32,198 nucleotides of DNA from Thermoleophilaceae bacterium (GTDB taxonomy: Bacteria > Actinomycetota > Thermoleophilia > Solirubrobacterales > Thermoleophilaceae): assembly GCA_016929195.1 (NCBI GenBank), contig JAFGJG010000085.1:1-32198 (forward strand), written 5' to 3'. Of this stretch, positions 15,294 through 32,198 are shown piece after piece (within the stretch, counting starts at the first letter, position 1; each line of letters starts with the position of its first letter). The notes below the pieces were generated by a model, which did no database searches, was not told the DNA's origin, and worked only from the letters and a program-made list of their open reading frames with translations. Made by a program: the position numbers and the translations under genes.

Positions 15294-15755
15294 ATGAAAC
15301 GGGGAGTCATCGCAGTTCTCGTTCCGATCGCCCTGCTCCTGCTGGCGCCGCTCGGCGCCCGCGCGCAGGAGGCGGCCCCGGCCGCGCCCGCGGCGAGCGA
15401 CGTGGCGCCGGCGGCCATATCCGAGGAGCCGCAGGCCGCGCCCGCGCAGGACGAGCCGACCACCGACGAGGCGCCCACGAACGACCTTCAGGGCGACGAC
15501 AGCGACATCCCCCAGCAGTACACCGACCCGCTCGCCGGCGAGGACGACCAGAACAGCGGCGGCCAGCAGGGTCAGGAGGAGGCCGCTCCCGTCACGACCG
15601 CGCCGGCCGTTCAGACCACCGCGGCCCAGCTGCCGCAGACCGGCACCCCGCTCGGCGGGGTCTGGATCGCCGGCCTGCTCCTCCTCACCGTCGGCGCCGT
15701 GCTCCGCTTCGCGCTGCGCCGGCGCGAGTACCCGTACCCGCTGCCGCGCTACTAG
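15294..15755 (+). CDS. Small LPXTG-anchored surface protein
   Basis: 153 residues. A signal peptide (1-25, ending GARAQ) is followed by an Ala/Pro/Asp/Glu/Gln-rich low-complexity region. The C-terminus has LPQTG (113-117), a membrane segment (about 121-141) and RRRE, the full sortase sorting signal. The middle has QQYTDPLAG (74-82), which recurs as NQYEDPFAG in the small LPXTG protein at 23904-24260. The protein is therefore expected to be covalently bound to peptidoglycan; its function is unknown. No sortase gene is in the window. The ATG at 15294 is chosen for the signal peptide; the weak box TAACAA ends 8 nt before it. Confidence 0.85.
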   Translation: MKRGVIAVLVPIALLLLAPLGARAQEAAPAAPAASDVAPAAISEEPQAAPAQDEPTTDEAPTNDLQGDDSDIPQQYTDPLAGEDDQNSGGQQGQEEAAPVTTAPAVQTTAAQLPQTGTPLGGVWIAGLLLLTVGAVLRFALRRREYPYPLPRY

Positions 15756-15773: not shown

Positions 15774-15858
15774 GTCACTCTCGTCACGCTCCCGTTACGC
15801 GTCCGCGGGGGGCGTGTCGAGTTATGCACCGCATGGATGCACAACTCGCCGAACCCCC
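15774..15858. repeat. Structured repeat, copy A
   Basis: This copy starts with GTCACTCTCGTCACGC, 18 nt after the LPXTG stop codon, and continues through GTCGAGTTATGCA. CGAGTT-A-TGCA (15818-15828) pairs with TGCA-C-AACTCG (15838-15848) with one A/C mismatch and a 9-nt loop. An outer stem GGGGG (15808-15812) / CCCCC (15854-15858) encloses it. The second copy is at 31614-31689. Both lie between convergent genes and in the same direction. A bidirectional terminator, small RNA or REP-like element are possible. Confidence 0.7.
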
Positions 15859-15887: not shown

Positions 15888-17228
15888 TCACCGCCCGTCG
15901 TTCGCCGGGCCCGGCGCCACCTCCGCCCCCTCCGGCTCCATCGCGAGCCGGCGGAGTCGCGCCGGCGTGGGCACCAGCTCGCGGCCGCGGATGCCGGTGA
16001 TCCAGAGGTAGGTGGCGACCATGGCCACGAACACCGTGGCGTAAGAGACGCTCGACACGATCGCCGCCGCGGTGATGCCGCCGTCGGGGACGAACACGAA
16101 CAGGCCGATCAGCGTCACGACCATCCCGAGCAGCTGCGGCAGCGTGGCGGCCAGCGGCCGCCCGGCCGCATAGACCCCGGCTCCGATGATCGAGGAGCCC
16201 GCGAACAGGACCGCGCCGGGCAGCAGCAGCCGCAGCGACTCGGCCGCGTCCCGGAACGCGTCCCCGTACACGAGCCCGAGCAGCGGCTCGGCGAGGACGG
16301 CGAGGCCCGCGGCGAGCACGATCGCGACCGCCATCGCGGCCCAGAACGAGCCGATCACCTTCCGGGCGCCGCCGCGCGTGTCGGCCGCCGCGGCGGGGAT
16401 GACCAGCGCCGCGAAGGTGTTCGCGAGCTGGTAGATGATCAGCGACACGTTCGTGGCCACCGAGTAGAGCCCGACGCTCGCCGCCGCCACGAAGGCCGGC
16501 AGCACGGCCACGTCGAGCCGCCCCGTCACGTGGTTGGCCACCGTGGCCCCCTGTCCGCGCACGCCGAACCAGAGCGTGTGCAGCCCGAGCCCGAAGTCGG
16601 GCATCTGCAGGCCGATCTGCCGGACGGAGCGCCACATGCCGACCACGAGCACCAGCGCGGTGGCTGCCGCCGGCGCGATGAGCGCCGACGTCACGGTGAG
16701 CGCGTCGAGCGGCCACAGGACCACGAACGCGGCCGCCATGAGCGCGGGTTGGGCGAGGCGCAGGACGTTGTACGCGACGAAGTCGTGCACGCCCAGCATC
16801 AGCCCGTAGTTCAGCTCGAGCGCCACGACCAGGGCGATCGTCAGCAGGAACCAGCGGCCGATCTCCACGGCGTCGTGAGGGTTGGTCGGGAAGATCGTCG
16901 GGAGGAGCAGCTCGCTGATCCCGATCGCGACGGCGGTCAGCGGGATCAGCATGAGCACCCAGGTGGTGAGCAGGCGCGGGCCGGTGCGGGGATCGCGGGC
17001 GATGAAGTAGCTCAGGCTCTGCGCGACCCCCATCGCGAACAGGAAGCCCGCGAGCTGGCTCACCGTGGTGAGCGCGACGGTCACGCCGCGGCCGCCCGGC
17101 CCGAGCGCCCGGGCCGAGATCACGCCGCTCGTGAGGTTGGCCACCAGCGTGAGCGCGGAGAACGCGTAGGTGACCACGCCAGCTCTCACGAGCCCCCTTC
17201 TCAGCAGTGATCGCACCGCGCTCGTCAC
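15888..17228 (-). CDS. Wzx-like polysaccharide flippase
   Basis: 446 residues from the GTG at 17228, which overlaps the stop of the upstream glycosidase-like gene as GTGA; the much longer open frame reaching 18050 is a shadow over that gene. The sequence is hydrophobic throughout, with about twelve membrane segments. It begins VVTYAFSALTLVANLTSGVISARALGPGGRG, split here as LVANLTSGVISARALGP, a typical start of polysaccharide transporters of the MATE/MOP (Wzx, RfbX) group. It should move lipid-linked repeat units across the membrane. Translational coupling to a membrane-anchored glycosidase-like protein suggests that export and trimming are linked; that is inference. Confidence 0.9.
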   Translation of the reverse strand: MTSAVRSLLRRGLVRAGVVTYAFSALTLVANLTSGVISARALGPGGRGVTVALTTVSQLAGFLFAMGVAQSLSYFIARDPRTGPRLLTTWVLMLIPLTAVAIGISELLLPTIFPTNPHDAVEIGRWFLLTIALVVALELNYGLMLGVHDFVAYNVLRLAQPALMAAAFVVLWPLDALTVTSALIAPAAATALVLVVGMWRSVRQIGLQMPDFGLGLHTLWFGVRGQGATVANHVTGRLDVAVLPAFVAAASVGLYSVATNVSLIIYQLANTFAALVIPAAAADTRGGARKVIGSFWAAMAVAIVLAAGLAVLAEPLLGLVYGDAFRDAAESLRLLLPGAVLFAGSSIIGAGVYAAGRPLAATLPQLLGMVVTLIGLFVFVPDGGITAAAIVSSVSYATVFVAMVATYLWITGIRGRELVPTPARLRRLAMEPEGAEVAPGPANDGR

Positions 17229-30828: not shown

Positions 30829-31614
30829 GTGGGCGACGTTTGGATGTCGGTCGTCGTGCCGGCCTACAACGAGGAAGTCGGGATCCGCGGGACGATCGCG
30901 CTGCTGCGTGAGCAGCTCGAGCGCTTCGGTCGCCCTTACGAGATCATCGTGGTCGACAACGCCAGCGTCGACGACACCGTCGAGGTCGTGCAGCCGGCGC
31001 TCGACGGGACCACGGTCCGGCTGCTGCGCAACGAGCGAAACCGCGGAAAGGGCTACTCCGTGCGCCGGGGGATGCTCGAGGCGCAGGGCGAGCTGCGGCT
31101 GATGTGCGACGCGGACTGCGGGCCGTCGCTCGACTCGCTGCCCGAGATGCTCGAGGCGCTGGAGAGCGCCGACGTGATCGCCGGGTCGCGGACCGCCGCC
31201 GGGGCCAGGGTCGGCCACCAGCAGCCGTTCCGCCGGCGGCTCGTGGGGTGGCCGTTCATCGCGCTCACGCGACTGCTGATGGGGGAGCCCACCCGCGACG
31301 TGTACTGCGGCTTCAAGCTCTGGCGGGCGCCGGCGGCCGAGGCCGCCTTCTCGCGCCAGCGGCTCGACGGCTGGGTGTTCGACGCCGAGGTGCTGGCGCT
31401 GGCGCGGCGCTCGGGCTACCGGGTGCGCGAGGTCGGCGTCGCCTGGGCGGACCGTGAGGGCTCGAAGCTCTCGATCTTCAAGGTGCTCCTGCCCGCCGTG
31501 CGCGAGCTGATCGCCGCGCGGCGGAGCGTGTGGAAGCAGGCGCCGCGGCGCCGAGAGGTAGCGCTTCCGCCCGAGTCCGAGCTCACGCCGGAGTCGGCGG
31601 ACCGGAACCCCTAG
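30829..31614 (+). CDS. GT2 glycosyltransferase (DPM/DPG-synthase-like)
   Basis: 261 residues from GTG 30829; ATG 30844 is an alternative. The GT-A fold is clear: MSVVVPAYNEEVGIRGTI, IIVVDNASVDDT (39-50), NERNRGKGYSVRRGML and CDADCGPS with D94-A-D96. YCGFKLWRAPAAEAAFSR and DGWVFDAEVLALARRSGY follow, as in polyprenyl-phosphate glucose/mannose synthases. V-D-N replaces the V-D-D of the DPM1-like protein at 25503. No clear membrane segment is present. It probably makes a second polyprenol-linked donor. Its stop codon is the first base run of repeat copy B. Confidence 0.88.
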   Translation: MGDVWMSVVVPAYNEEVGIRGTIALLREQLERFGRPYEIIVVDNASVDDTVEVVQPALDGTTVRLLRNERNRGKGYSVRRGMLEAQGELRLMCDADCGPSLDSLPEMLEALESADVIAGSRTAAGARVGHQQPFRRRLVGWPFIALTRLLMGEPTRDVYCGFKLWRAPAAEAAFSRQRLDGWVFDAEVLALARRSGYRVREVGVAWADREGSKLSIFKVLLPAVRELIAARRSVWKQAPRRREVALPPESELTPESADRNP

Positions 31615-31689
31615 TCACCCTCCCGTCACGCGCCCGCTCGGGGGCTTGTCGAGTTATGCATCTCAGGGATGCACAGATCGCCAAGCCCC
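31614..31689. repeat. Structured repeat, copy B
   Basis: It begins GTCACCCTCCCGTCACGC, with the first G being the last base of the GT2 stop codon, and contains GTCGAGTTATGCA like copy A. GGGGCTTG (31641-31648) pairs fully with CAAGCCCC (31682-31689), and inside it TGCATC (31657-31662) pairs with GATGCA (31668-31673) around TCAGG. The inner and outer stems sit as in copy A at 15774-15858 but with different bases. It separates two convergent genes. Confidence 0.7.
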
Positions 31690-31725
31690 ACTGCCGGCCG
31701 TTCGCCGGACCCGGGAGGCGCCCGG

Positions 31726-32198
31726 TCAGCCGCGGGCCTGCGGCTGCGCGGGCTCCGCGGGGGCCTCGAAGCCGGGCTCCGAGCGCTGCCCCTTCACGAC
31801 GCGCGAGACGATGTAGAGGGGCCGGTCCAGCACCTGGTCGTGCACGTGCGCGAGGTAGCGGCCCAGGACCCCGATGCTCATCAGCTGCACGCCGCCCAGG
31901 AAGAGGACCGCGACGAGGATCCAGAGGGTGGTCGAGGCGGTCAGGGCGCCGGAGAGCGTCAGCAGCAGGACGATCGCGCCCGCGATGCCGCTGACCGCCG
32001 CGCACAGTGCGCCGATGTAGGTGGCGATGCTCAGCGGCACGTCCGAGAACGACGTGAGCGCCTCGAACGCCAGCCGGAAGAGCGCCGGGTACGAGGCGCC
32101 GCCGCCGGCCTGCCGCCCGGCGCGCCGATACTCGATCGGGACCTGCTTGAAGCCTACCCACGCGACCATCCCGCGCAGGAAGCGGCGCCGCTCGGGCA
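31726..32198 (-). CDS. Membrane-anchored GT2 glycosyltransferase, C-terminal part (partial)
   Basis: About 156 residues are visible and the start lies beyond the window. The frame reads PERRRFLRGMVAWVGFKQVP, then EYRRAGRQAGGGASYP, two membrane segments (SIATYIGALCAAVSGIAGAI region and TLWILVAVLFLGGVQLMSIG) and GRYLAHVHDQVLDRPLYIV. This is the C-terminal layout of GtrB/ArnC-like bactoprenol glycosyltransferases: R-F-x-R-G, amphipathic helix, two membrane helices and the G-x-x-G-R-Y end. Such enzymes load glucose or aminoarabinose on polyprenyl phosphate. The catalytic domain is not seen, so the sugar cannot be judged. Confidence 0.9.
   Translation of the reverse strand, partial: PERRRFLRGMVAWVGFKQVPIEYRRAGRQAGGGASYPALFRLAFEALTSFSDVPLSIATYIGALCAAVSGIAGAIVLLLTLSGALTASTTLWILVAVLFLGGVQLMSIGVLGRYLAHVHDQVLDRPLYIVSRVVKGQRSEPGFEAPAEPAQPQARG

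Follow-up and report, generated by a model that had tools for sequence, protein, structure and literature searches.

The 32,198-nt stretch of contig JAFGJG010000085.1 (assembly GCA_016929195.1, a Thermoleophilaceae bacterium) analyzed here, referred to as the window, contains two copies, A and B, of an imperfect palindrome that can fold into a hairpin. The hairpins belong to a multicopy family, and one member on another contig surrounds the start codon of an AbiEi–DUF559 protein gene. The features at the two sites are as follows.

15294..15755, plus strand: gene left of copy A, C-terminal LPQTG-like sorting motif, no Pfam match
15774..15807, plus strand: upstream block of copy A, GTCACTCTCGTCACGCTCCCGTTACGCGTCCGCG, extended subtype of the element, aligned in copies A, B, C86, C118 and partly C124
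15808..15858, plus strand: hairpin copy A, 51 nt, covariance model match with E = 2.4e-10, pairs with 11 further copies
15888..17177, minus strand: gene right of copy A, polysaccharide biosynthesis protein (PF13440), convergent
30844..31614, plus strand: gene left of copy B, family 2 glycosyltransferase (PF00535)
31614..31639, plus strand: upstream block of copy B, GTCACCCTCCCGTCACGCGCCCGCTC
31640..31690, plus strand: hairpin copy B, 51 nt, covariance model match with E = 5.7e-10
31726..32169, minus strand: gene right of copy B, no Pfam match, convergent

The first-pass annotation had described structured repeats at 15774-15858 and 31614-31689, with shared upstream motifs and convergent neighbors. 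Sequence and coordinates match, and the gene calls confirmed the convergent setting. The hairpin starts 52 nt after the stop codon of the left gene in copy A and 25 nt after it in copy B; genes were called by a simple GC-frame method, so that intergenic gaps are approximate. Four of the six convergent gene pairs in the window (1-32198) overlap, and the remaining two, which have a gap, both contain the hairpin. The window is rich in glycan genes, including glycosyltransferases, a FkbM methyltransferase, polysaccharide synthesis genes and YfhO.

The structured unit spans 51 nt, base i pairing with base 52-i. Copy A has an outer GGGGG/CCCCC stem, mid-stem mismatches, an inner TGCA stem and the apex GCATG, and is 84% identical to copy B (50-nt hairpins compared). 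The hairpin is preceded in both copies by a common block, GTCAC..TCCCGTYACGCG or GTCAC..CGTYACGCG. Within the window the paired core GTTATGCA..TGCACA occurs at copies A and B only, and it was found in 0 of 100 shuffles. Both strands can fold, and do so better than shuffled sequences, the best being the bottom strand of copy A (z = -3.0 vs -1.9). No U-tract follows the GC stem on either strand of copies A and B, as read from the sequence. An Rfam scan of the window gave no match at the gathering score, in keeping with the earlier remark that no familiar family fits; the single sub-threshold match (17.6 vs 71 bits) was dismissed as chance level.

Searching the 3.46 Mb genome with a consensus (blastn) and with a covariance model built from seven copies identified at least 12 clear hairpin sites on eleven contigs. 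These 12 sites scored E values from 6e-11 to about 4e-5. Two weak matches (L028 and L031) look like coding sequence and were left out. The inner TGCA stem and the outer GGGG/CCCC are invariant across the 12 copies, and the stem covaries: the covariation score was 0.203 compared with 0.138 in shuffles (reached in 0 of 500), and 22 cells were doubly changed compared with 14.8 in shuffles (reached in 4 of 500). The proposal that structure is kept while sequence changes thus holds for the family. The upstream block is present at about five of the 12 copies. It was rejected as an independent repeat, being seen with hairpins only; TCCCGTYACGCG occurs three times in the genome, each time at a hairpin. 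Among the ten gene-free copies with both neighbors callable, eight lie between convergent genes and two between tandem genes, most of them about 25 nt downstream of a stop codon. The exact core pattern had no match in the GTDB genome_contigs set, and the exact family is therefore narrow. A plasmid similarity search gave no match.

A link to a protein-coding gene, which lay outside the readings of the first-pass annotation, was found on contig C12 of the same genome. Here a hairpin copy wraps the start codon of a lone DUF559 gene, with the codon in the hairpin apex. The encoded protein has 308 residues and the domains AbiEi_4 (PF13338) and DUF559 (PF04480). Its predicted structure (mean predicted local distance difference test score, pLDDT, 91.8) matches an AbiEi antitoxin (6y8q) over residues 6-186 (Z 12.2, root mean square deviation (rmsd) 3.7, 173 aligned) and the homing endonuclease I-Bth0305I (3r3p) over residues 193-289 (Z 12.5, rmsd 2.7, 93 aligned), with a Z of 10.9 against Vsr (1cw0). 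The PADLOC AbiEi model also matched (E = 1e-27). As modeled, the protein is composed of an AbiEi-like half, with a winged helix and a nucleotidyltransferase-like fold, and a Vsr/I-Bth0305I-like nuclease half. The nuclease is probably active, as E196, D223, E234, D236 and H241 do not vary among 48 homologues. The single neighbor scanned on C12 encodes a CBS/M50 protein and no AbiEii toxin. A Caulobacter DUF559 protein has been studied as a Vsr-like protein (PMC12907096). On C149, another contig of this genome, a weaker hairpin (GGGGGGTGGGCCGAGTTGACCGCGCATATGG.., L034 1128-1180) lies 5' of a further DUF559 gene; its apex ATG is out of frame, and C131 and C27 have in-frame ones.

The covariance model was also run on relatives and detected copies in G028, a genome from another family of the same order. 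A DUF559 gene there has the model's best match at its 3' end and the same palindrome at its 5' end, and solitary copies occur elsewhere. Absence of further copies from genome and relatives, listed in the first-pass annotation as a refuting outcome, was not what the searches gave. G028 also has three genes for Y1_Tnp (PF01797), the transposase of repetitive extragenic palindromic (REP) sequences, known as the REP-associated tyrosine transposase (RAYT). At G028 L021, an exactly repeated hairpin, TGACGCCTCGTGCATGCAGGACATGCACGAGGCGTCA (1260-1296 and 1695-1731), flanks a weak relative of the window hairpin.

DUF559 is present in 105 of 296 sampled Actinomycetota genomes, about a third. Palindromes around such genes were assessed in 80 loci of DUF559 relatives from a Thermoleophilia test, scanned with one hairpin finder, and in a second set of 80 loci, of which 64 by our count come from other Actinomycetota classes. 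Strong hairpins were found in the first sample at the 5' end of 29 loci and the 3' end of 13, where the rest of the same DNA gave an expectation of 0.016 per search window. The second sample had 19 at each end. Terminal repeats, usually palindromes, were detected in 55 of the 160 genes (34%; score of at least 18 between a gene's own 5' and 3' flanks), the two samples not being wholly independent, since a few of their loci are from shared genomes (the pairs L210/L100, L218/L099 and L238/L053 look identical). Mismatched pairs of 5' and 3' flanks reached this score in 0.3% of cases, and none of 243 control genes (700-1200 nt, same contigs) had such repeats. Among the flanking copies direct orientation is commoner than inverted, a weak signal in the case of palindromes. 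An apex ATG was seen in 19 of 40 5' hairpins, weaker ones included, most at or within two bases of the center, and 14 of these 19 continue into the DUF559 gene in an open frame. Palindrome similarity follows protein similarity (Mantel r = 0.29, 0 of 5000 permutations). In-frame stop codons occur in eight of 80 relatives (L055, L062, L064, L082, L085, L089, L098 and L106), which suggests turnover by decay.

A conserved mid-stem mismatch gave only a mild signal as a trait of all DUF559 palindromes and is not claimed. Short DUF559-only proteins were considered as a negative control, gave mixed results (n = 11) and were replaced by the 243 ordinary genes. Among these 11 genes, one has direct repeats and two, L190 (G201) and L191 (G326), adjoin copies of TGTTTCACGTGAAACA, a sequence resembling the ParB site parS. 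Several Solirubrobacterales assemblies (L057, L087, L092 and L107) share a long hairpin, TTGATGGGCCGAAAA..TTTTCGGCCCATCAA, in near-identical form, perhaps another palindrome family of similar kind.

Dispersal was observed in two further genomes. The palindrome of the Conexibacter arvalis (G041) DUF559 gene occurs at about 10 sites, and that of Thermoleophilia bacterium 5_8_m_bin24 (G062) at about 38, including both ends of the DUF559 gene; reversed-pattern controls gave 0 in both. Of the G062 copies read, six lie 0-13 nt from, or slightly overlap, two convergent gene ends. In a NAD-kinase-like gene of C. arvalis, one copy forms an exact in-frame insertion of 18 residues (LRRSAYRSGRQIDAAPDR) relative to a homologue in G052. 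The palindrome therefore inserts or moves. A second in-gene copy of C. arvalis occupies the linker of a CobU–aminotransferase fusion in the same reading frame. Y1_Tnp had no match in the window genome (G000), C. arvalis, G062 or G025 in a search that found it in E. coli and other positive controls. With Y1_Tnp absent, a RAYT was rejected as the mobilizer in the first three.

Taken with the gene association, these observations make it fairly probable that the window hairpins represent, in non-coding copies, a mobile miniature palindrome of REP-like type, with the DUF559 gene on C12 as its probable parent and the DUF559 nuclease as its presumed spreader. The earlier suggestion of a REP-like repeat was right in kind, the element being dispersed, palindromic, intergenic and mobile. 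In the proposed mechanism, the AbiEi-like half would recognize the palindrome, either as a duplex inverted repeat or as an extruded hairpin, and the nuclease half would then nick or cut it. Repair or strand transfer would copy the palindrome to new places and, rarely, the gene with a palindrome at each end would be copied along. Survival bias or target choice would leave copies downstream of stop codons, most of all where two genes converge and a strong stem may do no harm or serve as a terminator.

Several observations weigh against this explanation. The link within the window genome rests on a single gene, that on C12, and a 3' palindrome was looked for at this gene and not found. About two thirds of DUF559 genes have no detectable terminal repeat; these may reflect decay or another role. 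The covariance model detected no copies in two same-genus genomes, and the family is accordingly young or patchy. One of them, G002, was considered as an empty site and set aside, as one neighbor is conserved (77%) and the convergent partner differs, so that the site is not comparable. DUF559 genes could also insert next to palindromes spread by something else, and the bias to convergent sites could also stem from selection for terminators.

The former possibility is the main rival, a less likely one on our assessment: other machinery would spread the palindromes, and homing-type DUF559 nucleases would insert into or beside them and end up flanked. The nuclease domain resembles I-Bth0305I and a PADLOC homing-endonuclease model, and the flanking copies are mostly direct, which fits the landing of a gene in a single palindrome with duplication of the latter. 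Insertion of an insertion sequence into REPs has a precedent in ISPpu9 (PMC8450116). Nevertheless, the palindrome sequence is particular to each DUF559 gene and tracks its protein, and the start codon lies in the palindrome apex; gene and palindrome therefore look like one unit. Y1_Tnp, the known spreader of REPs, is moreover absent from three of the genomes with dispersed copies.

Bidirectional terminators common to convergent genes, duplicated by chance or selection and with no mobility of their own, would account for the placement of eight of ten copies in this genome between convergent genes, mostly about 25 nt past a stop codon, for the hairpins in both gapped convergent pairs of the window and for the six G062 copies at convergent gene ends. 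As a full explanation this is improbable. The stem lacks a U-tract, conservation of the loop and inner stem far exceeds what a terminator needs, related genomes lack the family, and copies inside coding genes and around DUF559 genes are left unexplained. Of the other readings in the first-pass annotation, which is partly supported overall, the bidirectional terminator thus persists as a possible secondary use fitting the position, and nothing was found in support of a small RNA. Slimmer still are the chances that the palindrome is an operator through which the AbiEi-like winged-helix protein regulates itself, with the dispersed copies as its regulon. AbiEi antitoxins are DNA-binding autoregulators, and in many DUF559 genes the start codon and the palindrome overlap. 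Against this, the dispersed copies are found within genes or at their 3' ends and not at promoters, many DUF559 genes carry a second copy behind the stop codon, and an inserted copy was observed.

Among known systems, the mobile palindrome favored here is closest to REPs with their TnpA_REP/RAYT genes (REPtrons). In both, short imperfect intergenic palindromes occur in many copies, a solitary nuclease gene (here DUF559) is flanked by its own palindromes, and enzyme and palindrome co-vary. In contrast to REPtrons, the nuclease is an AbiEi–Vsr/EDxHD fusion and not an HUH/Y1 transposase, the stem is longer (about 50 nt vs 20-40 bp), and the start codon of the enzyme lies in the palindrome apex. 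A conserved GTAG or CGTC tag adjoining the foot of the stem is a REP feature (PMC3733652); inspection of the flanks by eye found none conserved at the 12 copies of the window genome. The element works like REP/RAYT yet, with neither a Y1 transposase nor this tag, falls outside the RAYT group on these tests. In fold and score, two thirds of the protein correspond to AbiEi of AbiE, a type IV toxin–antitoxin system (described as a toxin–antitoxin system in PMC3985639), from which it differs in the C-terminal nuclease fusion and in the palindromes at both gene ends. With EDxHD/Vsr-like homing endonucleases such as I-Bth0305I it shares the fold of the catalytic domain, the conserved acidic and histidine residues and a solitary, seemingly selfish nuclease gene. 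Unlike these, it has no intron or intein and an AbiEi-like recognition part, and the dispersed unit is a palindrome, with many gene-free copies, rather than an intron.

No paper linking DUF559 to palindromes was found in the open-access literature, subscription journals and preprints lying outside the scope of the search. The chances are about even that AbiEi–DUF559 proteins across the Actinomycetota are the enzymes of a new mobile element class, comparable to REP/RAYT but non-HUH and of independent origin. On this evenly balanced proposal, a PD-(D/E)XK nuclease of the Vsr/EDxHD-like type, steered by an antitoxin-type DNA-binding half, would spread its private palindrome through the genome. 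The palindrome offers a concrete, testable substrate for the function-unknown DUF559 family, whose AbiEi-fused members are usually taken for antitoxins or Vsr repair enzymes. Private, dispersed palindromes suggest that evolution produced REP-like elements twice, the second time with an unrelated nuclease. If true, this would explain many of the structured repeats between convergent genes of high-GC actinobacteria.
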